Source: Gigantopelta aegis
Lineage: Eukaryota > Mollusca > Gastropoda > Neomphalida > Peltospiridae
Direction of reading: 5' to 3'
DNA: 64,000 nt
NCBI RefSeq assembly: GCF_016097555.1
Contig: NC_054704.1
Location: 33,120,554-33,184,553, forward strand
Shown here piece after piece: positions 5,569 to 62,900 of the stretch (its first letter is position 1; each line of letters begins with the position of its first letter). Position numbers and translations under genes: made by a program. The notes beneath the pieces were generated by a model that was given only the letters and a program-made list of their open reading frames with translations, made no database searches and had not been told where the DNA came from.

Positions 5569-6919
5569 CAGCGCCGTATCAAAAGTTTGCGCGATAATCC
5601 AAAATGGCCAGTGTAAACACGGGTCAGTATGTAAATTTTAAAAACAAAATTCAGCTAGTAGAATTAATAACCATACCTCAATATTTGGTTAAGTTTGCCC
5701 TTGTTACGAATGTAAGCCATAATGTGACGTGGAAGTGAAAAATATAAACTTTAAATGTATTCCACATTCAAATTTTCCCATATGTCTCCCATATGTCAAG
5801 AACTGCAGCGAACAACTCTTCAGACATTTTTATGGTTAGGGCCTTGTTTTGCAGTATTTTTTTCATTCTTAACCAAATATTTTCTATTATGTTCAAGTCT
5901 GGTGACTGAGCAGGCCATGTCATACCACGAATATTATTTTCACGTTTATATGCCTCGATTAATCAAGCCCTATGACAAGGTGCATTGTCATCCTGAAAAC
6001 GATATGGTTTATCGATAAAATGTCGTGCTAAAACAGGCCAGAGATGATTGTTGAGTATTTCACGATACTTTTCAGCATGAATGTTTCCATTAACCATACA
6101 TAAAGTTCCGACACCATGCCATGTAATGCAGCCCCAGATCATAATCGACACCCTTCGTTGACTTGGAACAGACATGCATTCGGGACAGTATGCTTCATGT
6201 GCAGCTCGCCAAACAAAAACACGGTGGTTTTTGCCAATTACTATCTGAGATTCATCACTAAATATCACTTGACTCCACTGGTTATTAACATCCCACCATC
6301 TCCTGTCCAGTCGCTTTTTTTTGTTCACTTCACAGATACTCATTATTTTTCGAATAACTCGCTTAAAAATTGTAATTTTGTGTAAAATTCTTTGAATTGT
6401 CACAGGATGAACTTTCACTCTCCTACCTTGATTAAAATCAGCAGTTATATCTCTAAGAACTTTCCCGCGATTTTTTTTGACACTCCGAAGTAAACATAAT
6501 TCTCCTCCAATTGTGATCTTTCGTGGTCGACCAGTTCTTTTGGCGTTCTCAACACATCCGCTTATACAATATTTTTTCCACACTGATCGAATGGTAGACT
6601 CTGGCACCATCAATAATTTGACAATTTCCGAGTTTCTGTGGCCATACGATTTTAAGTCAACAATCAGTTGTTTTTTCTCGGTAGTGAGATCTGTGGATTT
6701 GCGACCCATTTTGCAAAACACCGTCTGCTTCAAGATCAAGGGAGCAGACGACTAATTCATGATGTCACCAGTGTAGCTATGTAAAAAATATATAAATAGG
6801 GATTGTATCAAAAGGTTTGGTTTTACGTAACTTGGGGAAAAACATGCATTTTGCAGAAGGTAGAAAAGCGCTTCCGTGTTACTGACGTCATTTTCGTGAA
6901 CACTTTTGATACGGCGCTG
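5569..6919 (-). mobile_element. Tc1-like DNA transposon, nearly complete
   Basis: A 1351-bp element with perfect 18-bp terminal inverted repeats (CAGCGCCGTATCAAAAGT, diverging inward), flanked on both sides by TA (5567-5568 and 6920-6921), the Tc1/mariner target duplication. Its only gene is the minus-strand transposase at 5768-6709. The lack of indels and near-complete reading frame suggest a fairly young copy. It lies in the region downstream of the recognised FAM91A1 exons. Confidence 0.92.
5768..6709 (-). CDS. Tc1-like transposase, one in-frame stop
   Basis: 313 codons from MGRKSTDLTTEKKQLIVDLK to WETYGKI. An N-terminal paired-type helix-turn-helix region (VPESTIRSVWKKY) is followed by the GRPRK hinge motif, and then the catalytic DDE domain: first Asp in QVIFSDESQ, second in FQDDNAPCH, and Glu in SPDLNIIENIW, with exactly 34 positions between the second Asp and the Glu (DD34E). 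A TGA codon at 5963-5965, right after CHRA, interrupts the frame; an ancestral CGA changed by CpG decay would explain it. The frame otherwise runs through to TGA at 5768. The copy probably cannot make a full transposase. Confidence 0.9.
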
Positions 6920-8670: not shown

Positions 8671-11600
8671 CGGACCCGTGGAACCCACATTAACTTGCAT
8701 TGTGACCTTTATTAGTTTCATGCATTTACAAGTCATTTCCAAAGTGCTTTTTTTGTGTACAGATGTTCTTCTTTATGTACAGATGTTCTTTACAACAGGT
8801 GGGGCTGTAGTGTAAAATTATTTGTCCAGTAATATCCGATTTCTATGAAATCATATTTAAGAGAGAAGAAATCATGCTTTGTATAAAATTTTATTCAGAT
8901 AAATACATAAAGAAGTTGTATGAAAATGGTGTTATCATAATTTTTGTAGAAGATTGATTTGAAAATATTAATATATGATTGCTTGTGTGATTTATTCTGT
9001 TTTAACTTATTTAAGCAAATTTAAAAAATGATATGCAAGATATCACAGAATCAAGAATAGTTATTATTTCCTTTCAAGTTTTAATGTACGATTCTAGGGA
9101 GATAACATGATGTATAAAATTTTAAAATGTAATACAGTAACCAATAATTATTGCCACTTCATAACTGTACAGTGCACCACAACTATTTATATTTTTAATT
9201 TGAATTAATTTTCTTAATATTGGAGACAAATTGAAAGATGAGATGGTTTTTTAATATTTTTGTAATTGGCTGCACCCAAATAATTTTTAATCACCTAGTA
9301 ATACTTTTATTTTATTTGCTTTTCATCTTGCCTCTAAATTAATGTTATTGGTTCAACATATTTTATCAAGTAATACTACAGAAATTAGATTGTTGATCGG
9401 TTAGTTCATGTATATAATAGTGTAGTGACATGCCTTTGTATTCAACTGATCACTGTCGTTGTAATATATGACATTTGGGTCACAGACAGAATTAAAATAT
9501 CATGGAAAGATGTCTGTAGACTGGTATGTTATAATGTTAAAACTAGATATTGGACTCCAATGGATGCCTTGTATTAAAAATTAAAATTCTGGGCTTACTA
9601 ATACATGACTGTGCAGTTGAATGTTACAAAGCAACTTGTAGTTGTACAATAATTATCTTTATTAAAAAAAAGCTAATCACATTCTGTGCTGTACAAATCA
9701 GCTACTTAGTCTCAGTCTCATTTTTTAGTCAGTGAATTAATATAAACAGACTTATATTTGCCTAATAATATTGCATACGTGTACTTATTCATAAAGTGGT
9801 ATCATCACGTGAATACTTGTGGCTTAAATAGACAATAACTTACGAGTTACAAGGAATTACGGATTATCGGTCCCGAGTGAAATTAATGTTGTCAGTTACG
9901 AGCTTTAGCGAGTGACTGACAACATTATTTCATGAGGGACAGATAATCTGTAATTCAGAGTATCGAGTGGGTTATTGTATTTATTATTATCTTGCAATCA
10001 AAGTCCTTAATCAGGCACAAATTGATTTTACTAAAACAAGTTAAAAGTGAGTAATAGTTTTTGTCACTAGACAGCATAAATACGTCTTGACACTTTATAA
10101 AGATGGACTTCTAAATAAAGGCAATGTTTACAAAATCCTTGTGGAAGTCCTTTCTAATAATAAAGACAAATATTGAGGCAAATATAACCCTGTTTTATCT
10201 GCTATTCTGTCAAGTGTTTTTTGTTTTTTTTATTTATCACTGAACATGGGGTGTGCTGTCCTGTATTGGAAATTCCAGTCTGTTCTGGACACAATTCATG
10301 TAGGAGATGTATAATTAATTTATGACAGATTGGTGCTTCACTGATCATGTATGTTTTTGTGACCTTTGTGAAAAATCTGTTGAATATAATGTATTAATTA
10401 AATTTAAAATATGTATAAAGAGATCACAGTTTGTTTGATTTTTCAAAGTAATGAATGTCATGCAAGAAGAGTACTCTCATTGCATTTTTTAAAAATTTAA
10501 CATCATTTGCCATATGATTGCCACCATTTACATTATATAATGAGGCCACGAGACCTACAAAAGTTGAATGTGTGGAATGCAATACAATGGTATGATTTGG
10601 CATCCATGTTCAGAGATGGAATTAAGATGCATAATGTTATTTTACTTTATTCCTTCTAAGTCTCATTATGATCTAAAGTAAGTGTCGGGTATTCGAGTCT
10701 GGGTCGAGTTTGACTCTCGGGTACAATAATCTGGACTCACGAAGGCCCTAGTGGCAATACTTGTAAAGATAATTTTGTTGGATACTGATGTCAGAGGTAA
10801 AAAATTAAAAATATTTTCATTGGCCTGGAAGACTAGTAGCCTAGAAATATTACTAATTCCCATAAAAACAAAGTTAATCTCCCCAACCCCAATTATCTGT
10901 TGGAAATATGTGGCCGACAAATATATACAAAACCCTACCTTAGTACAACTGTACAACTGCATAACATTAGAACGTATTTAACAGGCCTGGGTTACAAGTG
11001 TCATTTAAATTGTACTCTACTATAGCAATTTCTACTTGCTTGTGGTGTGGCGACGAGTGTTAATTAATACCCCAATTATTATATATCACAAGCCAATCAT
11101 TATTCCTAAAACCATCAAGGAATCATCGAGAGATGCATTGGTCCCCAACTATCTTGTCTAAGAGAAAAAAATACAGACGAGCTGTTCAAAATTGTACCAC
11201 CACACTGATACATACTCTTATCAAGTTCCCTGTCTAGTTTTCTCATGACCACCCCTTCATGAATCCTGCCAATGACCCAACTGCAGTCTGTTGGTCTTTA
11301 CATTTCAAATATTGGGCACATGAAGTAGCTGGGGTTTGAGCTAAATGGTATAATAGTATTAATGTTGAAAAAAAGAAGAAAACAAAATGTGTCATTTCAG
11401 GGGTCTAGTAATCAAACTTGAAAAGACTTGCTCAAATAAAATTACAATATCATGGTAAATTATTCTAATTTTGTTTTAAATATCACCATTATATGATGCT
11501 GTATGAATTATATTTTGGTCTGATGCACCAAAATAATTTCCTTCCACCACTTGCCTGTCAAGTCTGCAAAATGTATACCAAACATTCTTTTCCTAAAGGT

Positions 11601-23400: not shown

Positions 23401-26400
23401 AATTCTGTGCAAAGAGACATGTTTTCAAACTCAATATAAAGTTAATCTCTGACACACCCTCTCATGATACGCATGCTCTTGTGATTTTGACAACTAAATA
23501 AAAATAATAGTTTAGGCTGAAGTCATTTCCTCCCATAATGCCACTTTCAGTACTCAAGCACATGCGTGATGTCTACTTCTGTTGACCTCAGTGATAGTAG
23601 TCAGAAGGTTAAATATTTTCTATAAAATTATATTTTATTGACCCCTATATTTAAAAGATATACAACAAATAATTAGTGCCAGTAATTGTGGTCCAAATGT
23701 GTAACGCGTTTGATTGAGCACATGTTCAAACTCTGATTCGGGTTTACCTGAACCGGAACATTGAAAAGTTCAGTTAACACAACAATCCGAATCAGGTCTT
23801 GTGATTGTTTCAAACATACTCTCCAGTAGTGTGATATCAGAAACAAAATATTTTAAAAATTAATTATATATATATATTATTTTTGTTAAATAGTTGTACT
23901 CAATATAACAATAATGGGAAACGAAATTTCGGTTCTGTGATTTTACCGACATAGTACCGGAAACGATTGTTACCGTGAAATCCAACGGCCTGAGAAAATT
24001 CGGGACCATGAACTTCGGCCAGTTTTAACAGGATTTCAGTATGTTCAGGGTTCGGTTTAGACAGGTTTCACTGTATTATTATAAACAGTCATTCACCGTA
24101 ATTCTCATTGATTTTGATTACAATAATTCTACCGGCCTCGGTGGCATCGTGGTTAGGCCATCGGTCTACAGGCTGGTAGGTACTGGGTTCGGATCCCAGT
24201 CGAGGCATGGGATTTTTAATCCAGATACCGACTCCAAACCCTGAGTGAGTGCTCCGCAAGGCTCAATGGGTAGATGTAAACCACTTGCACCGATCAGTGA
24301 TCCATAACTGGTTCAACAAAGGCCATGGTTTGTGCTACCCTGCCTGTGGGAAGCACAAATAAAAGATCCCTTGTTGCTAATTGGAAAGAGTAGCCCATGA
24401 AGTGGCGACAGCGGTTTCCTCTCAAAATCTGTGTGGTCCTTAACCATGTCTGACACCATATAACCGTAAATAAAATGTGTTGAGTGCATCGTTAAAAAAC
24501 ACATTTTTTTTACAATTCTAATACATTTTATAACAAAGAACAACATACTTTATTGTCTTCCCATTTTTCGAGAGATAATGTAATAATATTGAAGAACTCT
24601 GTCGCCTCGTGCTGCAGATTTTCCACTTCAAAAGGTCCATACCTGGACACAGTTGGTGTGCTTGGCCAATAAATTCCAACATTCTGTAAATATTGAAAAC
24701 ACAAACTAATAGCATGTACCATAACTAAGAACCCTAGTCTACTCTGTCAGCGTGGCTATATGACCCAAGCACATCTTCTCAGAATTACAATGTACTACTA
24801 AAAACTGGTTAAACATTTTCTTTTTTAAAATCGTTTTTATTTTTTGTTGAAACAATGAAAGTCATCATTTACTGGTGAAGTTAAGTAACAGTATTTTCAA
24901 GCTCGTACCCAGTCTAATGCTATGCCGTAACAATAACTCCCCCAACTCATACCCAGTCTAATGCTACACTGGAGCAATAGGGAACAATAGCGGCATAGCA
25001 ATAGAATGGGATCCCCTAAGTCACTATTGTTTTTGTTGTATGTTTCCTACCTTAAAATTGTATTTGAGATATTGATTCCACTTCTGCAGAAAATTGATAC
25101 AGGTAGGTTTATCATTAGTAATGTCAGAAACACTGCTAAATATTAATTTATGTCAGTATTACTCAAAAATAGATGCAGTAAATATTTTAGCTGAATCTGT
25201 TTGATTATGAATTTCACGCCATCCGCGATTTCGATTGCAACGTAGCAATAGCCTGGGAACGAGGACAGTGTCATCCAAGTTTGTTACAATGTTATTTATG
25301 AATTTCATTTAAGTGGGATCCTAAATTCTCAGGTGGGATACCAGATTTTGAAATGTTAGTATCCAACTGGGATACTGCCCAAATATTTTAATCTCAAACA
25401 CTGAAATGCCACCATTGCCAAATACAAATGTGACCATGGTCCAAATGACATAATTAATTGACATTCTGTTAGAGGAGACATGGGTTACAAAATGGCATAG
25501 AAGAGGGGACTGACTGCTTCAAAGAAAACAAATGTCATTCAATAAATAAATGTAGATTAAACCACAGTCTTTCAGGTGGAAATGGTTTTTTAGTAGATAA
25601 CTTGGAATACCTATCTTGGTGTCCAGTGCATGCTCTCAAGCTCTAGGTTGACAACACCATGGACTTTTAGAAGGGGAAACAAGAGACTTCCATTCATGCA
25701 ACATAGGCCCAATGAAAAGTGGATCCACTGCACAAAATTCGACTATTGGTGACAAGACTTATAATTACTGTATGTTTTAAAATTCAATTTCTACCAAATC
25801 AATCACAGAGCTGATACCTTTCAACAAAGATTTTTTTTTAAACCATTAAAACCTATAAAATGTTCTAATTCAAAACTATAAAAAGATCTAATTCAAACTT
25901 TATGGATCTCTTGTACACCATAAATAAATGTAAAATTTCTTATACTCGTAATATTCACGTTTGTGCTATAAATTTAACAGTCCATAGTGTATGTTGCACA
26001 GACAATGGGTTCCAGTAGATGAACAATTTACAACATTGTGACACATTTGCATCAAACTGATACCACAAACTATATCGCTCTGGCCAGGAAGACCATGTGT
26101 GTCATCACATGCTGTCCGTGAAATCCAATGATGTCATCTAGGTGATTGTTTTATTTACAACAATGACGTCAGTGAGAAATAAACTGTTTAGAGGTCGGCT
26201 ATCTGCTCAAACAATTAGAAACCACTCACATACTGCTCATCTTCAACACAGGAACAATTTAGACACCTTTTCAATGTCAACATCGTCTAATTTGGACACA
26301 GAGACACCTGTATTTAATCCAGAGACAGTGGAACAAAATTATCTTTAGTCATAGGCGTACAGGCTTCCAATTGTGTAGGGGGGCAGCCAAATGTTTGCTC

Positions 26401-29400: not shown

Positions 29401-32400
29401 GAAATGCAATGTCCACTTGATATCACTAATCCAATATCCCAAAGGGGGATGCGGGCAGAACATTTCCATTACTAACAAAAACAATAAAGTGTACCAAATA
29501 AAAGAGTCTAAGCTGTAGTACCACTGTTCAGTATGTAGTATAAACTACTCAACAATTCAGTAACCGCCTCAATAATCACAGACAAAATATTCTGTACAGT
29601 AAACAGTCTAAAGCATCCCATGTGGTCCGTCATTTTAACAGAGCAGGACACGGTTACAACTGCACTGTACTACAAAAGATTGTTACCGTAATGTTGATAA
29701 ATCCAAACTGAACATTGCAGAATCACTCTGATACACCCCTTAAACACAATGTGGCCTGCAGGACTTGATGAGTATGATCCAAGCAGTAATTAACTTTCTG
29801 TTTGTTAGTCTTCCCAGGCAGCTTACCTGGTGATGTTATGATTCTTTTATCTCTGGTGTTTCACTTAAACTGTTTTTATCCTACTGGTTTCAAAAACTGA
29901 ACTAAATCAACATTTAGTTGACAAAACAAGATTTTAAACTTATGGTTTTAAACAGAGACTCTACCTTTATTAAATAAAACACACAAATCCTAAAGTAATT
30001 AAATCACCTTTTTCAAGGAGCCACACTCAAGATACAAAAGGCAAAAGACTGGTAGAATGTCAGTATACCTGTCCTACCTGTCGATGCTGGGTGATGCCAT
30101 TAAGCATGACAATGGTGTGTGAATCATTCTCGTAGATCATTCTCCAGAAGTCAACAATGGTGTTCCTTAATGGCATCTGTGTCAGCAGGAACATGCATTT
30201 GTTCTTGTAGGCCTGGAAAACAACAGAATGTGATTGAATGACAACTTTTACATCAACTTTTATGCTATACATAATGTACCATAGCAAGTGTTTTCTAATA
30301 ACACAGAGTACTTGCATCAAATGAACACAAGAAAGCTGTAATGCATCTGGAATCATACATACTGGCAAAATGACAGCATTGATGTAGTCTGTACCACCTT
30401 CCACCGGTGTCGACAAGTAGGGTCGGTAATAGTTTGCTGAAAAACAAACAAAACAAATTATGATTATACATTTTTTTTTAAACAAACATCAGTATTAGTA
30501 TCATGTCAATACCGATTTAACGTACTGAGCAAATTTAAAAAATACAGAAATTTTGATCTTGAAAAATGTTACCCGCCATTTAATAAAGCACTAACAATAT
30601 ATCTGACAAATGCAAAATGGGTTGGGTATAAATCAGACGAGATCCTTGTGTATGGAATTTAATTTTATTTAGATGAAATTAGTGGGCGAGTCTTAACTCA
30701 GGCATGCATTTAACGCAGAGGATACCGAAAATACAGCTCGATATCGGTATCAGTATTGGTATTGTGTCAATACCGGATACCGTATCAATACCGAGGTAAA
30801 TCACACAAAAAATGCCGATACTGATACTGAACATCAAATTTGAATACCGCCCAGCTCTACAAAGTTACGTCAATGTTAAAAGCTACTGTGATATTTGTCA
30901 ATTTAACAGTTTACTTTTATACTGTATCCTTGAGACTGTAATACAAATTCAGATATCTGACTGACATTCCAGTTGGTCCTAGTTCAGCCTGAATTCTTAA
31001 AGTGTTATTTCTATTACTCCAGTATCAATAGGATTATTTAATAAATTAATTTATCATATAATATCTTACATTTTCAGTGCAATCAAAGTATGTGATAATT
31101 TTCAGATCACATACTTTAAGAATTTGATAACTTTGCAAATTAGATGTAAATCAGTCGAGGTCTCGGCGCTAAGTTTATTGACATTTAAGCAAATGTACTT
31201 GGGTGACACTCCATGATTGACGTATGCATTCATAGTCATCAAATAAAAACATTTCAGTGGCAGTTTGACACTGAAAGCTGTCCAGCGTTCAGAAAACAAA
31301 AAACATTAGGCATAACTTTATTTTGATGTAAGGACATCCAAAATGACGTCATTCAAGTTTGACGTCATTTCCATTCAAAAATACACCGCGCCACATATTC
31401 TTACGTCATTTGAATATCTAGTAATGGCGGACTGGAATTAAAGTTGCGTGTACAGTTTACAAAAACACGTTGTATTCAGCTTGAGTTTATATGATAAAGA
31501 GATTATTACCCTCGTGTATTTCGGTATCATCAATATCATATCTTAGGAATAAAAATAATGCATTATGCTCGCCAGAGGCTCGCATAATACAATTTTTATT
31601 CCTAATATATGATATTGACGATACCGAAAAACACTCTGGTAATAACCTCTATATCTTCTAAATATGAATGTTTGTTTTATAAAACTGAGTCATAATAAGA
31701 CCTTTCCCTTTATTTGCCCATATCTCTAATATATTACAATTTTAGTTAGTAAATTATACATAATTAGAAGTAGTCTACATCCACAAAAGAAATCTGAATA
31801 ATTTGTTCAACTGACACATGCTGTAACACACAGAGGGCTACTGTATTAAAAAGCAAGCAAGTTGCATACACTCACATGCTAAGATGTCGTTAAATCTGTT
31901 CCTAGACGTGTTCTCTGGTAGTTTGGCAGTTGTGTACTCATCCAGGCTGTCTTTGGGGCTGACCTTATTCAGTAACTGAAAATAATTTACACAGGTAAAG
32001 CAGCAATTCACAACCATCGAAGCAGTCACAAGCATCAGGGCCAGCACTGATATAGCCTGGCATCCTGGATTTGAGCTTTCAACTTGAAATCCCAGATCTT
32101 AACACCTACCTCTCACTGGAAACGGTTACATCATTCTAATCTCTGATCTTGGATCATTTGTAAAAAAAAAAAAAAAACCCTTCTTAAACTTACTTTCAAG
32201 ATATTAATTACTAGCATTAAAAGAAGCATTCTGAGGGTACTGCTAAAGAAATACATGTCCCCTACCGGGCCTAAATTTGTTTTCTTATCTCCTAAATTCA
32301 AGGGCCATAACTCTGTAAAAAAAACTGGATAAATAATCATGAAAGTTAAAATTGATCTATAACAGTACATGATAAAGCTATATGTATACACAAAATTCTA

Positions 32401-35400
32401 GCTCAATATTTTAAGGCTTTGCAAAACACAAGTCCAGAAAAACACATTTTTGTATTGGCTTAGTTCAAGGGCCATAACTTTGTGTAAAATAGGTAAATAG
32501 CCATCAAAGTCACAATTTATCTGTAGCAGTATATGATAAAGCTATGTATAAAATTTCATTATCTTGAGGTATTGTGGAGAAAAAAGGTCAGAAAACAATA
32601 AGTGGGACAGACAGACAGACGGACAGAAGGACAGAGACAAAACCTATAGTCCCTTCCATTTGAACTGGTATGGGACTACTAATCAGTATTGAAGAGCTGA
32701 ACACATTTTCAAAATAGTAATTGCATGTGTTAAAATGATCTCTACAATAGAAGTTTTCTTTTACTATAAACTGTAGGATAACTCTCACCTCAAACTGTTC
32801 TCTCAGTCCGACGAGGCCCGTGTCTTGATTCACTGTCTGCAGTTCTTCAAGTTTGGGCAGGAAATCAACAGACGAGACTGTTGTGTTGCCAGCCAGTATC
32901 GCTTCTACCAGCGCATCATGCAAAAACTCATACTGTTCCTGTTATAAATTAAAACTACCATTTACCACAAATTATCCTTATGGTTAGAACCCCACCCACC
33001 AAAAAAACAAAACAAAAAAACAACAGAAAAACAACAATTGTGACTTAGCAAACCTTCATGATAATTTTTATTATGATATATAGTAATAATTATTATTACG
33101 ACATATAGTCTAAGAGGAAGCCAGCTACATTTTTTCATTATTAGCACTAAAATCTTTTATATGTACTCTCCCACAGGCAGGATATTAATAGTAATGCAGT
33201 GAAAATAACATTGCAACAAACGAGGTAGGATTTTGATAGTAACTTCTTATTGGATGTCAAACATTTGGTAATATTGACAGTCTTAGACAGTAAATCTGCT
33301 ACATTTTTCCATTAGTAGCAAGGGATCTTTTATGTGCACCATCCCACAGACAGTATAACACATACCACTGCCTTTGATATACTAGTCGTGGTGCACTGGC
33401 TGGAATGAGAAATAGCTCAATGAGCTCAATGAGGCCCAATCCCGAACAGACTGCAAATCAAGTGAGCACTTTACCAGTGGGCTACATCCCCACCTCTAAT
33501 CATAATAAGGAAGGAAGGAAATGTTTTATTTAACCACACACTCAACACATTTTATTTATGGTTATATGGCGTCAGACATATGGTTAAGGACCACACATAT
33601 ATTGAGAAAGGAAACATGCTGTCGCCACTTCATGGGCTACTATTTTTGATTAGCAGCAATGGATCTTTTATATGCACCATCCCACAGACAGGATAGTACA
33701 TATCACAGCCTTTGTTACACCAGTTGTGGAGGACTGGCTGGAACAAGAAATAGCCCAATGGGTCCACCGACGGGGATCGATCCTAGACTGACCGCGCATC
33801 AAGTGAATGCTTTACCACAGGGCTATGTCCCCCCCCCCCCCATATTCAGAATAAATGATTATTTGTAAGAGCTGCAAGGTGAACATGTTAGTGTAGAGCA
33901 CCAGTGAGAAACAGGTAGGAGTTTGAGCCACGTGGGACACGTGCCTGTGTTTGAACCATGTTCACTCTCTCATGTCTCATCCTGCTCACACAGGTAAAAA
34001 TATCCACAAAATCCTGATGTTTTGAGGCTTCAACCAGGTACGCCAGAGCAAGAAACGTTCCTGTCCGACCAATGCCAGCACTGAAACAAATATATTGAGA
34101 TGTATTAGTTATCATTAAACAAAGTTCCTTTCCACTCATCTTGTAAAACAAACAAAATCAAGGATTAGGTCTCCTACAAAAAAAAAAAAAATGGTTTGTG
34201 ATTATTAAAATTACCATCATGGAAAGTAGTAATGAATTGAGAATTCCAAATTAGTCTGGCACTATTATACTATCATATATGTGTCTTTTATTTTCTTTCT
34301 CAAAATTCATATAGCATATCAAGTAGTTAAAAAACAAAACAACAATAAACAAACAAATAAACAAACAAACAAACATTAGGTAGTGATCGGTACAGTAATA
34401 TTTTGAAACATGAATGAACAGTGATCCTGTTGTTAAAACAAATCTTCAGAAAGAAAAAATGTTTTTAACCAGTAATTCATTCAGTAGGCATATGTTTTCA
34501 GCATTTTTGTTTTTTATATTACACTGTAAAGTGAAAAATTAAAAAGGATAATTAAAACAATTATACATATAAAAAAAAGAAGAAGTATTAGCTAAGAATG
34601 ATAAAGTGATTTTATTAAGTATGGGGTGGGTGTGTTAATGCAAATAAAAGAAATTCACCTAATTATCGGCAATCTCAAATACATACATTTACATGATGTA
34701 AATGCAATCGAGATGATGCAAGTTCTTATTTCAATTAATGATATGCAGCATACCGTACTCATTCTTTATTTTCTTACCATAATCAAGATATTTTTATTTT
34801 GAAAAATTCGTATAGTTGATATTCATGAAAATGTGGGTACATATAAAATGTAACAAAGCTTTACAGTTTAATCACCATCACACTGACAGTTTTGAGAACT
34901 TGGTTTCTCTTCTCTGTTTCTCTGTCTGTCTGCTTTTTACCATTATCCCAAAGGAATAGTGAATTTCAAAAAACACTATTCCGTCTAAAAATGTACTATC
35001 CCTTTAATTATTAATGTACCACTAGTTTTCCTGACTGTGCTACGTCGCCCTGTACAACATTACATAAGGAACAATTGTTTATATACCAGTCTATGCATTG
35101 CTGCGTACTAGCTGGAATTACAAACGAACTCATTCCAAACATTAGTCTCAATCAAAAAGACGTTTATTTTGTACCAGTAAGTGCATGGGAATGGTCTTAG
35201 TAGCACAAGGATTTGTTCTGCAGAAAAATGTAGCTGAAGAAAAAGCATAAGCAGAATAGTCGCAGGCGATTTTCGGTATTCTGTGCTTTATTTTCACTTT
35301 CATGATGGAATATTGGAAGAATAGTTTTACTATTCCATTTCGAAATTTACTATTTGCGGAATAGCGTAAAATTCGACCCCTGCTCTGCTTTTTATCTCTC

Positions 35401-41400: not shown

Positions 41401-44400
41401 GATGGTATAGGAATCCCTCTTGTCTATAAATTAAAGCAGTGTTTTCTTTTTATACGTACATCTATATAACATGCATTCATGTAATCAGAATTAGGGTCAT
41501 CAGCTTCACAGGTGAGGATAACTCTGGAACAATCATCTGTAAAGAAACAAAAATGTAATACAATGACCTAACAATACGGAAAACACAACTAATGAAACAT
41601 GCATTCTGATAGTACTGCTAAAGCAATACATGTCTGCTACATGGCTCACTAAATTTTTGTATCTCCTAAATTCAAGGGCCTTACCTCTGTGAAAAAATGA
41701 GTAAAATGTCATGCAAGTCAAACTTGATTTGTAACAGAACATGATAAAGCTATACACAAGATCTCAGCTCTCTTGAGGTATTGCAAAAAAAGTCAGGAAA
41801 TTTAAGGGCCATAACTCTGTCAAAATGGATAAATCGTTATGAAAGTCAAACTTGATCTGAAATAGTACATGATAAAGTTATACAAAAAATTGCACCTGTA
41901 TGTGGGACAGATGGACGGACGGATCGACGGATGGACGAACAGTCGGACCAGTAGGGGCTAAAAACTGAACTACATGTACTTTTTCAAATGCAGAATCATT
42001 TAGCACTGCCTATAATAAACCCATCATGAAGCACTTGCAATGCCTACAGCACTGAGTGTTTCTAAATAGTCACCTATGCAACAATTAACTGGGTCCAATA
42101 TTGCTTAACTTAGGCACGAATAAAAATGGATTTGAAACATGTACATTTGACATATAAATAAAATAAAAAAGTTAAGACTGACATAGACACAAATATTAAA
42201 GGGCGAAATACAGTCAGACATACTAAGTACTATACGGTTACAAGTGAGTGATATACGTACAAGCACAAATATTTCTGTATCTGTTCTTCATTTTATTCTC
42301 TGGCTTCATAGCAATGTCACATGGCTTTACAAGACCAGAAGGCAATTTCTGAAATTAACCAATCTGTCCATAATACAAACAAACAGGAGTACATTAGAGA
42401 CAGGATAGCACATTCTATGTCCTGGTTAAATGACCCTACAGGTCTCCTGAATGGGATAGATCCTGCAATCCATCACACCTCAGGTAAGCTACATTCTACT
42501 CTCATAAGATTTAGGGGATGCTACACGATAAGAAGGAAGGAAGGAAATGTTTTATTCAACAACGCATTCAACACATTTTATTTCCAGTTATATGGGGTTG
42601 GACATATGGTTAGGGACCACACACATATACTGAGAGGAAACCCGCTGTCGCCACTTCATGGGCTACTCTTTTCGATTTATATGCACCATCCCACAGACAG
42701 GATAGTACATACCACGGCCTTTATTACATAAGTTGTGGAGCACTGGCTGGAACGAGAAATAGCCCAATGGGCCCACCAAAGGGAATCGATCTTACATCAA
42801 TTACGCATCAGGCGAGCGCTGTATCAATGAGCTACGTCCTGCCCCAACTATACGATAACAGTTCTCCATGGATACAAGAATAGCTGAATGCATAGCAACC
42901 AATAAAACTGTAATGTTTGTCTTATTACAGACAAAACAATGGGCTACTCTCATGGCTATTCTTGTATGAGGCACATGTATCGTTTTGGTGACACAATTAC
43001 AGAACAAGAGCTTAAACAAAGAACAGTATAAATATAGTAGCTTAGATGGTATTGGCACATACTGGCCTCGGTGGTGTCATGGTTAAGCCATCGGACAAAA
43101 GGATTGCAACCCAGTGCCGACTCCCACCCAGAGCGAGTTTTAACAACTCAATGGGTAAAACCACTACACAGACTTCTCTCTCACTAACCACTAACCCACT
43201 GTCCTGGACAGACAGCCCAGATAGCCAAGGTATTAGCTCTTTGAACATGCCTTGGTAATGGTAAGTGTGTGGCAGGTGGGTGTACCAGCTCCAACATAGA
43301 ATGAATGAACATTTTAGTGGTAGATGCAGGTCATGACATTAAGTGCGAAAACAGATTTAACAGGGTTTTTTTTTTTTCTTCATCTGCACTCGCTTCCGGA
43401 AATGTCCGTCAAATTTGATTGTATTGTAGAATGGTATAATTGTGCGAAAGTAGGGATGGATAGGACTTTATTACACACCTGGTGAACATCTGGATGTGTT
43501 ATACAAATTTCGTACACGTGGTGGTGCGTATTAGTAGTAAAATGGCGTTATTTCGGTAAGTGACATCATCTTCATTGGTCTTAGCAGTGTGCATGTCTCA
43601 ATGGGTGATGTTGTAAGTAATTGTCAAATTTGACATCATTTGATGGTGGGTAATAAATAAAATACCACAATCATTTTTACTAGATAACATAACTATAATG
43701 TAGTATTCTAAGTGTGTGCAGTTACTGATACAATCAAATTTGACAGACAACACATGTAGAAGATGGGTGCGGATGCAAAAAAAAAAACCCCGATAAATCT
43801 GATCATGGCCTAACTTCACTCATTAACCCCTGTCCCGGACAGACAGCTCAGACATGAACCCTGGCCCTATGCATATAAAACGTTAACCACTCAATCATCT
43901 TTGGATCTTTATAGGATAAAGGCACTGAAATAAAGGTTACTTAATTAATGCTACCTCAAACTGCTTGTGGAACAAGTTTTCACTCTTCATGTGCTGAACA
44001 TGGTTCCAAAGGTTGGCCAGTTTAATAACAGTTTCTTCTGTGCTTGGTATCAACGTCTGGTATTCAGTATCATCTGTAACCTTGCTGCCTGATTTTGTGT
44101 CTTCACCATTGGCTTTATTGTCATCTTTCGCTTTCCTCTTGATTGCTTTTTTCTTTCCTTTGTTTCTTACGGCTTTCATTTCTGATTAAAACAAAAATAA
44201 AACTCTGGTTTAGAATTATAATAATTGCTCACAAGTTTATAGCAGTTACTTTTTGGAATATAACAAAAATGTTAAAATATTTGAAAATACATGAATAATA
44301 AAAGGTAAAAATAATTATTACAAATTTCAGCAATCTTTTGAATATTAAATATTTTATAGACGAAAAGCTTCCACTACTTTATTGGAATAATTTTTACTCT

Positions 44401-47400
44401 ATACAAAATGTACATCTGTTATTTTGGTACTATGGTAATATATAATAATAATATTATAATACTACCAAAGCACTGTTAGAAGATGAATCTTGTATTATTA
44501 AGAGACAAACTGCATGGACTTTTAGAAGACTGTTAGAAGATGAATCTTGAAGTATGATGACCTAATTAATTAAGAGACAAACTGCATGGACTTACCAAAA
44601 CCATTGTCACAAGATGAATCTAGTAGTATGATGATACATGTATATATTTAATTTAGAGAGAAACTGCAATAATTAAATTTCTGTTACATTCATTACAATT
44701 TAATGTCATCCCATTAGTCCAGTCATAGTAATGTGAGTTTTCAATTAACGTAAAAATAACTTTGTCAGGAAATGTCATATCTGATGACATCACTTTATAT
44801 TGGTACTTTGTCTTAATGAGCACATTATTGTTTAAGAACCAAAAATAATTCAAAATAAAATATGAATGTTTAGTGTTTATTAATAAATGTGTTTTAAATT
44901 TAATTAAAAGTATTGTCTGTTATTTCTTTTACGTAAAAAAAATTTTTTTTTCGCAAACTTATGTGCAAACAGTTTTGCCGTTTCAGATGATTTTTGTTTT
45001 GTTCATACCCTGACGAAAGTAAAAGAAACAAGCATTCTGAGGGTACTGCTAAAGCAATACATGTCACCTGCCAGACCCAACACATTTTTGTATCTCCTAA
45101 ATTCAAGGGCCATAACTCTGATAAAAATGGGTAAATCACCATGAAAGTCAAACTTGATCTGAAACAGTACACGATAAAACTATACACCAAATTTTAGCTC
45201 AATATATCAAGGCATTATGAAAAAACAACCATCCAGAAAGCTATATGTAGTACAGACGGACAGACAGACAGAAAGGCTGATACACCTATAGTCCCCTGCC
45301 GATGGTCCAGTAGGTGGTACGTAAAGGACTTACCAAAACCAGTTAAAAGATGAATGTGGTATTATGATGATCTTAATAATTAAGAGACAAACTGCTTGAC
45401 TTACCAAAACCACTGTTAGAAGATGAATCTGGTATTATTAAGAGACAAACTGCATGAACTTACCAAAACCACTGTTAGAAGATGAATCTGGTATTATTTA
45501 AAAACAAACTGCATGGACTTACCAAAACCACTGTTAGAAGATGAATCTGGTATTATTTTAAAAAAACTGCATGGACTTACCAAAACCACTGTTAGAAGAT
45601 GAATCTGGTATTATTAAGAGACAAACTGCTTGACTTACCAAAATCACTGTTAGAAGATGAATCTGGTATTATTAAGAGACAAACTGCATGGACTTACTAA
45701 AACCACTGTTAGAAGATGAATCTGGTATTATTAAGAGACAAACTGCTTGACTTACCAAAACCACTGTTAGAAGATGAATCTGGTATTATTAAGGGACAAA
45801 CTGCTTGACTTACTAAAACCACTGTTAGAAGATGAATCTGGTATTATTAAGAGACAAACTGCATGGACTTACCAAAACCACTGTTAGAAGATGAATCTGG
45901 TATTATTAAGAGACAAACTGTATGGACTTACCAAAACCACTGTTAGAAGATGAATCTGGTATTATTAAGAGACAAATTGCTTGACTTACCAAAGCCATTG
46001 TTAGAAGATGAATCTGATACCATGTGGTAGTCACCTTTCTGTTTTGGATGGCGTGTATTTGTTCTGCGCCTGCAATTTGTTAAAAGGGTAAATAAGACCA
46101 TTAAATGGATATTATTATAATTATTGTGAGACACAAAATAAAGGGTGTTGTCAGTACAGTGAAACTCCACCTAACGACCATCCCGGTTGTAAGACCACCC
46201 TGCTATAAATGTTGATCAATGTAAGTGATTGTCTGCTAAGTCGATGAAGCTTATGCACAGGATTTTAGTGATTTGTCTTTGTCGCATTGCCCATGCGGTG
46301 TACAGACAAGACACTACTTAGCCAATGGCTGCTGGCTGTGTTGGGTTAGGGTATACATGTGGAGTGTGTTTTCTGTCTTTGTCGCATTGCCCATGCGGTG
46401 TACAGACAAGACACTACTTAGCCAATGGCTGCTGGCTATGTGTTGGGTTAGGGTATACATGTGGAGTGTGTTTTCTGTCTTTGTCGCATTGCCCATGCGG
46501 TGTACAGACAAGACACTACTTAGCCAATGGCTGCTGGCTATGTGTTGGGTTAGGGTATACATGTGGAGTATGTTTTCTGTCTTTGTCGCATTGCCCATGC
46601 GGTGTACAGACAAGACACTACTTAGCCAATGGCTGCTGGCTATGTGTTGGGTTAGGGTATACATGTGGAGTGTGTTTTCTGTCTTTGTCGCATTGCCCAT
46701 GCGGTGTACAGACAAGACACTACTTAGCCAATGGCTGCTGGCTATGTGTTGGGTTAGGGTATACATGTGGAGTGTGTTTTCTGTCTTTGTCGCATTGCCC
46801 ATGTGGTGTACAGACAAGACACTACTTAGCCAATGGCTGCTGGCTATGTGTTGGGTTAGGGTATACATGTGGAGTGTGTTTTCTGTCTTTGTCGCATTGC
46901 CCATGTGGTGTACAGACAAGACACTACTTAGCCAATGGCTGCTGGCTATGTGTTGGGTTAGGGTATACATGTGGAGTGTGTTTTCTGTCTTTGTCGCATT
47001 GCCCATGCGGTGTACAGACAAGACACTACTTAGCCAATGGCTGCTGGCTATGTGTTGGGTTAGGGTATACATGTGGAGTGTGTTTTCTGTCTTTGTCGCA
47101 TTGCCCATGTGGTGTACAGACAAGACACTACTTAGCCAATGGCTGCTGGCTATGTGTTGGGTTAGGGTATACATGTGGAGTGTGTTTTCTGTCTTTGTCG
47201 CATTGCCCATGTGGTGTACAGACAAGACACTACTTAGCCAATGGCTGCTGGCTATGTGTTGGGTTAGGGTATACATGTGGAGTGTGTTTTCTGTCTTTGT
47301 CGCATTGCCCATGCGGTGTACAGACAAGACACTACTTAACGAATGGCTGCTGGCTATGTGTTGGGTTAGGGTATACATGTGGAGTGTGTTTTCTGTCTTT

Positions 47401-50400
47401 GTCGCATTGCCCATGCGGTGTACAGACAAGACACTACTTAGCCAATGGCTGCTGGCTATGTGTTGGGTTAGGGTATACATGTGGAGTGTGTTTTCTGTCT
47501 TTGTCGCATTGCCCATGCGGTGTACAGACAAGACACTACTTAGCCAATGGCTGCTGGCTATGTGTTGGGTTAGGGTATACATGTGGAGTGTGTTTTCTGT
47601 CTTTGTCGCATTGCCCATGTGGTGTACAGACAAGACACTACTTAGCCAATGGCTGCTGGCTATGTGTTGGGTTAGGGTATACATGTGGAGTGTGTTTTCT
47701 GTCTTTGTCGCATTGCCCATGTGGTGTACAGACAAGACACTACTTAGCCAATGGCTGCTGGCTATGTGTTGGGTTAGGGTATACATGTGGAGTGTGTTTT
47801 CTGTCTTTGTCGCATTGCCCATGCGGTGTACAGACAAGACACTACTTAGCCAATGGCTGCTGGCTATGTGTTGGGTTAGGGTATACATGTGGAGTGTGTT
47901 TTCTGTCTTTGTCGCATTGCCCATGTGGTGTACAGACAAGACACTACTTAGCCAATGGCTGCTGGCTATGTGTTGGGTTAGGGTATACATGTCGAGTGTG
48001 TTTTCTGTCTTTGTCGCATTGCCCATGTGGTGTACAGACAAGACACTACTTAGCCAATGGCTGCTGGCTATGTGTTGGGTTAGGGTATACATGTGGAGTG
48101 TGTTTTCTGTCTTTGTCGCATTGCCCATGCGGTGTACAGACAAGACACTACTTAACGAATGGCTGCTGGCTATGTGTTGGGTTAGGGTATACATGTGGAG
48201 TGTGTTTTCTGTCTTTGTCGCATTGCCCATGCGGTGTACAGACAAGACACTACTTAGCCAATGGCTGCTGGCTATGTGTTGGGTTAGGGTATACATGTGG
48301 AGTGTGTTTTCTGCTTAGGTATCTTTTCACTGGGACGGGTGGGACGTAGCTCAGTGGTAAAGCACCCACTTGATGCACAGTTGGTTTGGGATCAATCCCA
48401 GTCGGTGGGCCCACTGGGCTATTTCTCCTTTCAGCCAGTGCACCATGACAGGTATATCAAAGGCTGTGGTATGTGCTATCCTGGTATGGTGCATATAAAA
48501 TATCCTTTGCTACTAATGGAAAAATGTAGCAGGTTTCCTCTTTAAGACTATTCGTTAAATTACAAAATGTCTGACATCCAATTGCGGATGATTAATAAAT
48601 CAATGTGCTCTAGTGGTGTAGTTTTAGTTTCAAACATGTATATGATACTATGGGTTAGGGGTGGTTTTTATTTTAAATAAACAGCCTGGATTGCATTACA
48701 CAACACGTAACTGTTGATGTACCATTTTATTACAACCATTCCATTTGTTCTTGTCAATAAAATTTAACTGGTGGTTGTTTTAAAATTGATTAACTTTTAT
48801 GATGTCACATAAATAGAAGTACAATACATCTAACAAACATTGTACTTACTATAAATTACCAGGAATAAAATTCATTGTAGATGTTTATTTCGTACACTCA
48901 AAACTGCAATGTGTACATATTGACAATATTTCATATAAAACAGCCCGCAAACACACATGTAAGTAAGTACGATATCAACAAAGAGTTCAAACTTTTAGTT
49001 CAAATTTTTCAAAAATCTATCTTATTTGCACTGCATCTAATCACATTTAATTAATCAGACAAGGCGGTACATGTCTAGAATGCATTTATGCACAGGCAAT
49101 AGTTAAGTTCAACTCAGCTTGGAACGAATGGCCCCAATCGAGCATGCTAGACACTTCATATAGTTTTGTATCAAGCTATTTCTACTGTTAATAACTAAAA
49201 AATCTGTTCATGCATGTGTGTACTCAAGATTCAATTGAAATTTCTTAAATCTGTCAAATGATATGAAAACACTTTAAGCAGGCAGAGAAGAACTGAAGAA
49301 ATCAGATATGTTAGTAATAATAACAGTGACCCGTACCTTCTGTAAACAACAATAATAATGACAGCAACAAGCACGACTATTACAACAGCTAGTATTGCAG
49401 TCACAGAAATCACTGTTACCTCCCCTGTTGAGGGCGCAGGGTCAATAACTGCTTCTGGAAAAGAAAAAAAATCATAACCCAACTTGTTTTGTTTTGAAAC
49501 ATGTACAATTTGATATATGTTTGCAGAAAGCAATCAAAGAGAATGCTACATGTAAAACTGAAAACAAAATTGCAACAGGTAACAACCAAAATAGCATGCT
49601 CTAGATGCTTTTTCCAATTATAGATGAAAATTACTGCCAGTGCCAATAACAAATTTGAAAAATGTTGGCATAGTGAGCTTTTCATAAAAGGAAGGAAGGA
49701 AATGTTTTATTTAACGACGCACTCAACACATTTTATTTACGGTTATATGACGTCGGACATATGGTTAAGAACCACACAGATATTGAGAGAGAAAACCTGC
49801 TGTCGCCTCTTCATTCATTACTCTTTTCGATAAGCAGCAAGGGATCTTTTATATGTACCATCCCAGACAGGGTAGCACATACCCAGGGCTCGAACTTAAT
49901 AATTTGTCTCCCACGGCAATTTTTTAAAGAATTGCAATGGGTGAAACAGCCCAACCGATGGCAATTTCGAGTAATTATTTTTTTAAAGTGACATTTGCAG
50001 AAAATACATATGACTGAAAGGTTATTTTGCTGTATTTAAACATATTTCAAATGTGAAAATGTTAAATACTGGCAGATTATGTACACCTGGTGTATATATT
50101 TTGCCATTGTTGATGTGTTTTAACCACGGCACAAAAGTGCCATCGGTAATGCTCTCTACCTACAGCAATTTATATCTCAACGACAGCAATTGCCATCGGT
50201 GCCGTCGTTAAGTTCAAGCCCTGCATGGCCTTTGATATACCAGTCGTGGTGCACTGGCTGAAACGAGAAATAGCCCAATGGGCCCACCGACGGGGATCGA
50301 TCCCACACCGACCGTGCATAGAATGAGCGCTGTACCACTGGGCTACGTCTCGCCCTTTTCATAAAAGAACAATTTGTTCTTGACTATAAAAAAATTAAGC

Positions 50401-59900: not shown

Positions 59901-62900
59901 GCTCTTAGGAGGTGTGTGATTTAGTCTTTTGAACAGATACATGTAGTTTGACCATATTTTTTCCCTAGACTCAAATACAGGGCAACTGTATTGTATATTG
60001 TAATTTATTTGTGGTGATTATTCACAAAGTGATTGTTTGTATTTAGATATATACATTTTGGTGGTGTTGTATATTAATACATAGGGGTGTAACGATACGG
60101 TCAAAACTGTATTGCGATATAAGAAACTGTATTGCAATATGTATTGCAATATAGTTGATATTTAAATTTAATATTTATAGGTGGGTTTTTTTTTAATAAA
60201 AACAGAAGGCATAACTTTTTAATGATCTTTATTAGTTTCAGCTGTCAGGCTAAATGTTTTAGGCCGTATTTTTATTTTTTTAACATAATACTAGTCTACT
60301 AGAACACCGGTGTGACGGTGTCAACCTATTTATAAATTGTCACGTTCGGAAATCCTTACTATCGGGCTTTTCCGTTGCTGCTTGCTTGACTCGGAAATGT
60401 GCGTATTGAGTCGCAATGTTTCAGCAGATCGACCGAACCAGAGCCAAGATGATTAGCCAAGGTATTTTGAACGATTGGCCGAAGTATTACGAGTTCAGGG
60501 TAAAACAGCGAAGTGTGATTCTCATTTGTTGGTTTATTTCTTTGAAGATGATAGCCGTAGCCGTATTCCAACGTAAATGAACAATGAATGATAATGTGTA
60601 AGTAACAAAACATTTATTTGTAATTATCGTTAACTTGTTATTTTCATTGGACTTTTAACACGTTTTATTTAGAAGTTAGAACCAAGTATAACCGACCTAT
60701 CACTTCGTATGCCAACAAGTAAGCCGACTACGCTTGACGTGATTGTTATATTTCCTGTCATCACCAATTAATAAAATGATGTGGTTTTTGTTTGTTTGTT
60801 TGTTTGCATATTTCAAGTCAAACAAGATACAAGGAAAAACAATAGCGTATAAAAATCACGATACGCAAAACTGTACCACAGTTCGTATCGAGCTGATCAA
60901 TTATCGCGGTATACCGGTTTATCGTTGCAGCACTATTAATACATAATATTAGGTGTTATAACCTGTCAGGCATTGTTACCTTGTTATAGGATAATTGGAT
61001 ATGTATATAGTGTATATTTGCAGTTATGTAACTGACTGTATTAGAGGGTTAAGCTTCATTTGTCTTGATTTGTGTGTCAGAAGTAAATATGGTACAGTTG
61101 AGGTTAATTTGTTTTATTGTGTCACAGTAGTTTTTAGTGTCATAGATGACCCTGATAATGAGGTGGTATTTTATTGCCATAATTATATTAAGTGAGCCTA
61201 TTTGTAGCCATTTTTGTTTCAGCCTTTGGGTTGGAGCTATGTGAGCTAGAACCATGAGAAGTACGTGAGCTACAATACAATGGGTTTGAGAGATGACACA
61301 GATGTGACCAGCAGAACTGTAGGAGAACCATCTGCAAGAGATATTTACAGACAAGCGTGGTGGCGAACTGGTATTAGGATGTGTGCAAGAGATGTCAACA
61401 GCCAACCAACCAAGTTGTGCTAGTTGTGCTAGTGTCTGGTCGTGGTCAAGATACTGACTGAGTACTCATGATGATAGTGAATTTCAGATAGGTTAATACT
61501 GATAAAAATTGAATTGGTTTAAAAAGATTACTTTATTAAGGCTCAGGGACATTGACTGACTAAAAATTAGTGTGCTCAAAATGGCAAACCATGGACACTA
61601 GAATTTTTTTTGAGGGATGTAGTTTGAGGTCGGAGTAGTGTTGTGTTGGGGTGATATTATCATTTTGTAGATCCATGGTTTTGTATATAAATTTGTTAAA
61701 ATGTTTTCTTTGACTTTTTTATTTTCGTATCTTCTAAGTTCAAGGTCCATAACTATATAAAAGGAAAAAAAAGGGTAAATCACCAGAAAAGTCAAACCTG
61801 ATCTGTAACAATAAAGCTGTATACAAAATTTCAATTCAGTATCTTGAGGTATTGTGGGGGGAAAAAATTAGGAAAACTACATTTTTAATATTCAAGGGCC
61901 ATAACTTTGTCCAGGGCTAAAAAAAATCCTCTGATTCTAAACATTTTCAGAGAAGAACTTTATCAACAGTGTTAGTATATAGAATTCTATGTCATATGCT
62001 ACTTACTGTATATGGATTAAAAAAAAAACCCACATTATTATTTATATTGAAAAGAATAACCAATTTGTCAGTAACAATTTATCCAATTTTAAAACAAATT
62101 TTTTTTTTTTTAATTTTACTAACAGTTCTGTTAGTTGTTGGTTCCATTTTATTATTTTTTTACAGTTAGTATTTTACAGTTAGTATTTTTAGACATCTAC
62201 CAGCCCCAAGTTCAGCCAGCAAACATTTCGCTAACGTTCGCAAACTATTTGATTGGTTTCCAATGTGGCCATTTGGTTTACCGTGAACCGCACAAACCAG
62301 TCTGGCGGACGTTTTTCCATTTGGTCTGGCTGAACGCAGATTATTACTTTTCGAAGATTGCTTATTCATAAACAGTGCATAGGATACTTTTGCCGATATA
62401 TTTTGCGCATTGGTTCAATGTTTGTATGGATATTTCTGAAGCATATTTCTACAACCAACAAAAACATGTATTGATTAAAATGAGCAGGTAATTCAAGGTT
62501 AGGAACATAATATCAGCGAACTAATGTTTGGTGTATTAGTAAATTTAGGACCACTTAATTAGGCCTACTATCTATTGTTATTATGTAAAAATTGAATAAA
62601 CATGTTCCTTTCGGTTCTCTTCGTTTGCAATTTGGTTCATAAAAATGGGCCAACCACCGCTTGGCCCCAGGCCAGACTAGTCTCGATAAACCACTGTTTC
62701 TAACATGCATGGATTCAAATGTATGCTACTCTTTTGAAGCCAGTTTAAACTGAAGCTTGATGACCAAACTATTTTTTATTTTATTTTATTTTTTATTAAT
62801 TCGGTAATGTTTTACTCACTGATTATTCAATTTAATAAATTTGTGGAAATATTTCACGCGAATCCAAATAGATTCGTATGTTTTATGCTTGAGCAAATCC

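Follow-up and report, generated by a model that had tools for sequence, protein, structure and literature searches.

How can an intron come to hold a row of complete, in-frame microexons, and are such units a device of the gene or a by-product of DNA slippage? The question is raised by a 64,000-nt stretch of Gigantopelta aegis contig NC_054704.1 (positions 33,120,554 to 33,184,553; hereafter the window, numbered from 1), in which the intron following an 80-nt juxtamembrane exon of a receptor tyrosine phosphatase gene carries a tandem array of 24-nt blocks, each flanked by its own splice signals. The gene and the array lie on the minus strand. The reading that we prefer, and hold with about even confidence, is that a minisatellite was born at an exon-intron boundary and has been mass-producing splice-competent microexons, which are probably used at a low or variable level. 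This reading is supported by the retention of the 24-nt length, the phase, the CAG and the GTAAGT in all ten units of the array proper, and by the decay of most outlying copies (three of four are broken), as expected without strong constraint.

The array proper occupies 45955-45405 in the intron after exon 46069-45990 and comprises ten units, which we number in the direction of transcription: P1 (45932-45955), P2 (45873-45896), P3 (45814-45837), P4 (45756-45779), P5 (45698-45721), P6 (45639-45662), P7 (45581-45604), P8 (45523-45546), P9 (45464-45487) and P10 (45405-45428). Each contains a TACCAG acceptor, a block of phase 1-1 and a GTAAGT donor, and the block is exactly 24 nt long in 10/10 cases. 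The spacers measure 34 or 35 nt, giving a period of 58 or 59 bp, and the intron between P1 and the 80-nt exon would likewise measure 34 nt. The peptide DSSSNSGF is encoded by nine of the ten units and DSSSNSDF by P6, while the last base of the block is A rather than G in P3 and P5. Microexons are usually 3-27 nt in size; all ten P units have such a size together with scored sites of their own on both sides. With tandem units of tens of bases, the array also has the form of a minisatellite or variable number tandem repeat (VNTR). Tandem Repeats Finder detects it with periods of 117 and 175, both multiples of the unit, and the 58-59-bp unit is seen on unit-by-unit inspection.

Four outlying copies follow downstream. 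P11 (45334-45355) is preceded by a 49-nt spacer and is broken, with a 22-nt block and CAC in place of the acceptor, its donor being kept. D1 (44596-44619) is 24 nt long and in frame, encodes DSSCDNGF and has a GTAAGT donor and a poor acceptor (score -5.9). D2 (44523-44545), preceded by a 50-nt spacer, has lost its donor, and D3 (44466-44488) is 23 nt long, frameshifted, and followed by GTAGTA. Frame, acceptor AG and donor are thus all kept in only one of the four. The gap between P11 and D1 is 714 nt, of which ~270 nt match dispersed repeats elsewhere in the window: self-blastn places a repeat at 45022-45295, with partial matches at 32220-32653, 41591-41891, 61721-61856 and 62950-63030. The longer spacers before P11 and D2 suggest an older, longer unit that may have lost ~15 nt before the young array spread. 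Although the array is known from one assembly, simple assembly stutter is unlikely to be its source, because the units carry scattered differences.

This anatomy largely agrees with the first-pass annotation, which had described a tandem array of acceptor, 24-nt block and GTAAGT donor with ten intact units and a damaged one, phase 1-1 throughout; these points were all recovered from the sequence, the phase of the P units by computation. Its 59-bp period holds for units with 35-nt spacers and becomes 58 bp where the spacer has 34 nt, and its assignment of DSSSNSGF to every unit fails at P6. The extent that it gave, 45334-45955, covers P1-P11 and overlooks the three further copies D1-D3 at 44619-44466.

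The origin that the same annotation had proposed, from the end of exon 45990-46069, is borne out by the commonest block, which is identical at 22/24 bases to the last 24 nt of that exon (46013-45990, encoding DSSSNNGF), the parent copy. Exactly 24 nt before its donor, the exon contains TATCAG, a latent acceptor with a score of 2.0, and the intron that follows starts with GTAAGTCAAGCAATTTGTCTCTTAATAATAC. In P1 the latent exon AG stands behind a copied intron start and its score rises from 2.0 to 7.5. In the order of events that we propose, a tandem duplication took in the last 24 nt of the coding exon and the first part of the intron and founded the minisatellite. The copied intron start would have put a pyrimidine-rich run (TTTGTCTCTT) before the latent AG, and this combination would therefore have made the copy a complete exon at once. 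Every further copy would likewise be born complete, a microexon that brings its own acceptor, block and consensus donor and, because the copied length is 24 nt, keeps phase 1-1. Copy number is probably fast-changing, and the array probably exists mainly because of DNA slippage, not because it was selected as a device. The locus illustrates a route by which slippage alone, at the border between exon and intron and with no transposon involved, could give rise to a new in-frame exon; an AG lying latent in the exon and a pyrimidine-rich intron start would suffice.

The host was identified as an animal receptor tyrosine phosphatase gene by exon translations and profile matches. The translation of the transmembrane exon (49337-49454) continues in frame into the 80-nt exon (45990-46069), and the next coding exon (43955-44181, EMKAVRNK...) is the one that the computed in-frame isoforms rejoin. 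When four exons are joined by hand (49454-49337, 46069-45990, 44181-43955 and 42348-42261), one reading frame runs across them. The first protein tyrosine phosphatase (PTP) domain, also joined by hand, aligns with positions 1-234 of 234 of the Pfam Y_phosphatase profile (E 3.1e-80), and its top match among PDB sequences is receptor phosphatase alpha (E 7.6e-125). Its catalytic loop is intact and spans an exon junction, so that the gene presents the arrangement of a receptor-type PTP, in which a complete PTP domain with catalytic loop comes after a transmembrane segment. The catalytic-loop exon seems to stop at 33945 (33945-33943, minus strand) with a GC donor (ACACAG|GCACGT) and to be joined to GAACAGTAT at 32938, a junction that would make a GC-AG intron. 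The second PTP domain is represented by a fragment only (30063-30488, Y_phosphatase profile positions 35-79, E 5.9e-11). EGF-like repeats at 64000-63155 on the minus strand (EGF_laminin, E 2.2e-07) are a candidate part of the same gene; within this segment a 99-bp tandem repeat (63387-64000) encodes 33-residue EGF-laminin-like units and continues past the window end. The parts of the phosphatase gene examined, short of the whole gene, do not look like a pseudogene.

What splicing could draw from the array was computed by translation of the possible joins. The frame is kept when every unit is skipped and when any single one of P1-P10 or D1 is included, and it is lost with P11 or D3. A stop codon results when the 80-nt exon extends to the P1 or P2 donor, and also when a block-internal AG or a spacer gcAG serves as acceptor (tried for P2 only). 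We know of no minimum-intron figure for molluscs, and the benchmark used here is human. Among the spliced human introns that the available part of PMC4463651 names, the shortest has 43 nt; because the 34-35-nt spacers fall below this figure, neighbouring units should not be joined to each other, as the first-pass annotation had argued, and P1 should not be joined to the 80-nt exon. With a minimum intron of 40, 50, 60, 66 or 80 nt, the P units can be combined in 89 ways (the all-skipped one included), with a maximum of five units, and over this 40-80-nt range P1 is never joined to the 80-nt exon. With a minimum of 95, 110 or 150 nt there are 28 combinations and a maximum of three units. The earlier expectation that at most one unit, or widely spaced ones, would be used therefore stands in part: adjacency is barred, but by length a transcript may hold as many as five units (or three). 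Mutual exclusivity is not enforced by the sequence, since length bars neighbours only and the all-skipped transcript stays in frame. Any isoform with several units would have to use spaced ones.

The spacing rule may be stricter than intron length suggests. CTAAC is present in 10/10 P blocks, and over the 60 nt that precede the acceptors of P2 and P3 the YTNAY motifs are this CTAAC, at -47 in the preceding block, TTCAT at -55 and TTAAT at -10. By the usual rules TTAAT at -10 is too near the acceptor for a branch site. In joins that skip one unit, 46-47 nt would separate the donor from CTAAC, the predicted branch site. Steric interference is described in the available part of PMC5740500 for a donor and a branch site less than 50 nt apart; between neighbouring units the whole spacer measures 34-35 nt, within that limit, the branch site itself being a prediction. 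Skip-one use, that is, every second unit, is predicted to be allowed by length. Skip-two use, every third unit, may be the real rule if the CTAAC of the preceding block is the branch site, because the skip-one distance of 46-47 nt is below 50 nt.

Docking-selector pairing of the Dscam type was sought with the P1-P2 spacer plus the P2 block against 49340-46070 and 45333-43955, and the best duplexes were no stronger than those of shuffled units (of 60 per region, fractions of 0.37 and 0.28 paired at least as strongly), a test of one unit that short docking sites could escape. We infer that most transcripts would skip the array and that a minority would gain one or a few DSSSNSGF steps of 8 residues in the cytoplasmic linker. 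A fuller version of the same idea, which we put forward tentatively and regard as doubtful, would make the locus a slippage-driven source of exons: a minisatellite of complete microexons in which sub-minimal spacers, together with a branch site in the preceding block, restrict use to every second or every third unit, and copy number sets both the maximum gain of the linker (three or five 8-residue steps for ten copies) and the splicing odds. Should the units be used, the locus would offer a natural experiment, with ten almost identical exons in competition and introns of sub-minimal length, on the proximity limit between splice units and on how the spliceosome chooses among equals.

Splice signals were scored with matrices built from the host gene's own 11 acceptors and 8 donors. 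The acceptors of the P units score 3.8-10.2, and 9/10 exceed the median of 5.1 of the gene's own 11 (-2.3 to 9.2, leave-one-out). Their donors score 5.3 in eight units, the same as the 80-nt exon's own donor, and 3.4 in two, compared with 1.9-10.4 (median 5.3) for nine donors of the gene. In a scan of the window, a rough control given these small matrices and thresholds set at the lowest scores among the array's own units, a scored acceptor, 24 nt and a scored donor occur together 11 times on the minus strand, ten of these being P1-P10, and once on the plus strand. If the block may measure any multiple of three from 9 to 51 nt, the same matrices yield 59 structures for the minus strand, of which 14 lie in the array, and 30 for the plus strand. 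A lone microexon-like structure therefore carries little meaning; the ordered run of ten is the signal, and it is unique in the window. For the donor motif [AG]GTAAGT the counts are 19 (minus strand) and 7 (plus strand), and 13 of the 19 lie in the 80-nt exon and the following intron, the exon's own donor included.

Beyond the array and the D units, the block has four loose matches on the minus strand of the window (near 43748, 25125, 17570 and 16403) and one on the plus strand (8731-8752, 4 substitutions and 2 deletions), all of which were taken as chance. The spacer has no plus-strand match in the whole window, and no reverse-strand copies of the array were found within the phosphatase gene. 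Searches of viral contigs by protein and by DNA pattern gave no relatives, as expected for an animal gene.

The ten intact units could owe their state to selection or to recency, and the pattern of variation bears on the choice. In a hand alignment of P1-P10, checked letter by letter, each row is a spacer and the block that follows it; the donors included are those of the 80-nt exon and P1-P9, and the P10 donor is also GTAAGT. Units one to five places apart differ at a mean of 3.4-4.6 of 59 columns, and recency alone may explain their intactness. Most of the block changes alter the encoded residue: P6 has G to D, D1 has S to C and N to D, and in P3 and P5 it is the junction base that differs; relative to the exon, the P blocks show N to S plus one synonymous change. 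We see no sign among them of purifying selection on the peptide.

Several observations weigh against the preferred reading. Variable sites are concentrated outside the functional elements, 2/33 in the donor, CAG and block versus 11/26 in the rest of the spacer (P=0.0012), or 2/33 versus 7/26 when changes are collapsed to events by eye (P=0.035); the block alone, counted as events, gives P=0.14 against the rest of the spacer, and the partition (6-nt donor, CAG, block) follows function yet was chosen with the alignment in view. This unevenness hints at constraint on the splice signals, which would be unexpected for a purely neutral array, although the T-rich spacer may simply be more mutable. 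Moreover, microexon-like signals of free length are common in the window (the 59 and 30 structures above, array included), so that signal scores alone do not predict use; the scoring matrices are based on just 11 acceptors and 8 donors; and use of the units is itself a prediction from genomic sequence.

The low variation of splice signals and block is also what would be expected of a selected length dial, in which the cell would include spaced units and so adjust, 8 residues at a time and perhaps differently between tissues, how long the linker between membrane and phosphatase domain is and how many serines it holds. All P units are in frame with near-identical peptides, and such isoforms would accordingly differ mainly in length; since the differences between block copies are mostly amino-acid-changing and the one unit tested revealed no regulatory pairing element, we consider a dial of this kind rather improbable. 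At the opposite extreme, the array might be an inert intronic repeat whose signals are kept by recent common descent only, and which the spliceosome skips as a whole without effect. A mean difference of just 3.4-4.6 of 59 columns points to little time for decay, and of the four outlying copies three are broken, as an inert repeat would predict, but the scores of the unit signals are comparable to those of real exons of the gene and the variation is unevenly distributed; this explanation, too, seems to us rather improbable.

Unlikely as well, though slightly less so, is that the array works through its donors. The twelve extra GTAAGT donors (P1-P11 and D1) would bind U1 and alter the choice of the true donor or the skipping of a flanking exon, the blocks remaining unused as exons. 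The crowding of 13/19 minus-strand [AG]GTAAGT sites into the 80-nt exon and its intron, one of them the exon's own, fits this proposal, and so does the human ABCA7 VNTR, which starts at an exon donor and shows, in the available part of PMC5954066, one-unit retention and length-dependent skipping of the next exon; the one-unit retention, however, is reported there as unaffected by VNTR size. In Gigantopelta, an 80-nt exon spliced from the P1 or P2 donor would read into a stop, and a pure donor effect leaves the intact acceptor and frame of ten copies unexplained, although recent common descent could explain them. The reading of a minisatellite that was born at the exon-intron boundary and probably supplies microexons at a low or variable level is the one that we retain.

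Several other features were noted in the window. A second minisatellite (46274-48313; 102 bp x 20 copies, 98% match) lies in the intron just before the 80-nt exon and is open over its length in several frames because 102 is divisible by three; a flank query containing it gave no blastn match to the microexon array. Next to it, a dispersed repeat at 48337-48600 has 16 partial blastn matches elsewhere in the window. The dispersed repeats may be similar to ones found in bivalve molluscs. An open frame at 5967-6751 on the minus strand contains a Tc3-type transposase domain, with a Sleeping Beauty helix-turn-helix (HTH) match under its cut-off. ARAGORN calls a tRNA-like gene at 24135-24207 on the plus strand, with the anticodon undetermined; because it has no Rfam match at the gathering score, the call is possibly spurious, or else possibly a tRNA-derived repeat. 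No Rfam family reached the gathering score anywhere in the window.

Individual elements of this locus have parallels in known systems, and Davis et al. 1988, cited in PMC10526429, reportedly names tandemly repeated exons, of 81 bases, in its title. Our searches of the open-access literature, including those on minisatellite-born or arrayed microexons, returned no tandem array of complete exons with sub-minimal introns. The micro-exon genes of schistosomes share with the array the presence of many very short exons, but according to the available part of PMC10526429 their introns range from 100 to almost 5000 bp and their proteins are secreted, in contrast to the 34-35-nt spacers and the receptor phosphatase found here. 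Mutually exclusive tandem exons of the steric class, as presented in the available parts of PMC6071210 and PMC5740500, resemble it in that copies of an exon and part of an intron are spaced so as to bar the joining of neighbours; in Gigantopelta this rule applies to each pair of neighbours in a row of ten copies, and the prediction is that the units used are non-adjacent, not that they exclude one another. The array appears to combine known elements in one form, and its nearest precedent is probably the VNTR in intron 18 of human ABCA7, which, according to the available part of PMC5954066, begins at the donor of exon 18, is built of units of 25 bp and differs in length between people. There, retention of one unit shifts the frame, its level does not change with VNTR size, and skipping of exon 19 increases with length. 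In both loci a tandem repeat starts at the donor of an exon and its unit begins with that donor, but the ABCA7 unit is described in that source with a donor only, whereas the 58-59-bp unit of Gigantopelta unites an acceptor, an in-frame 24-nt block and a donor.
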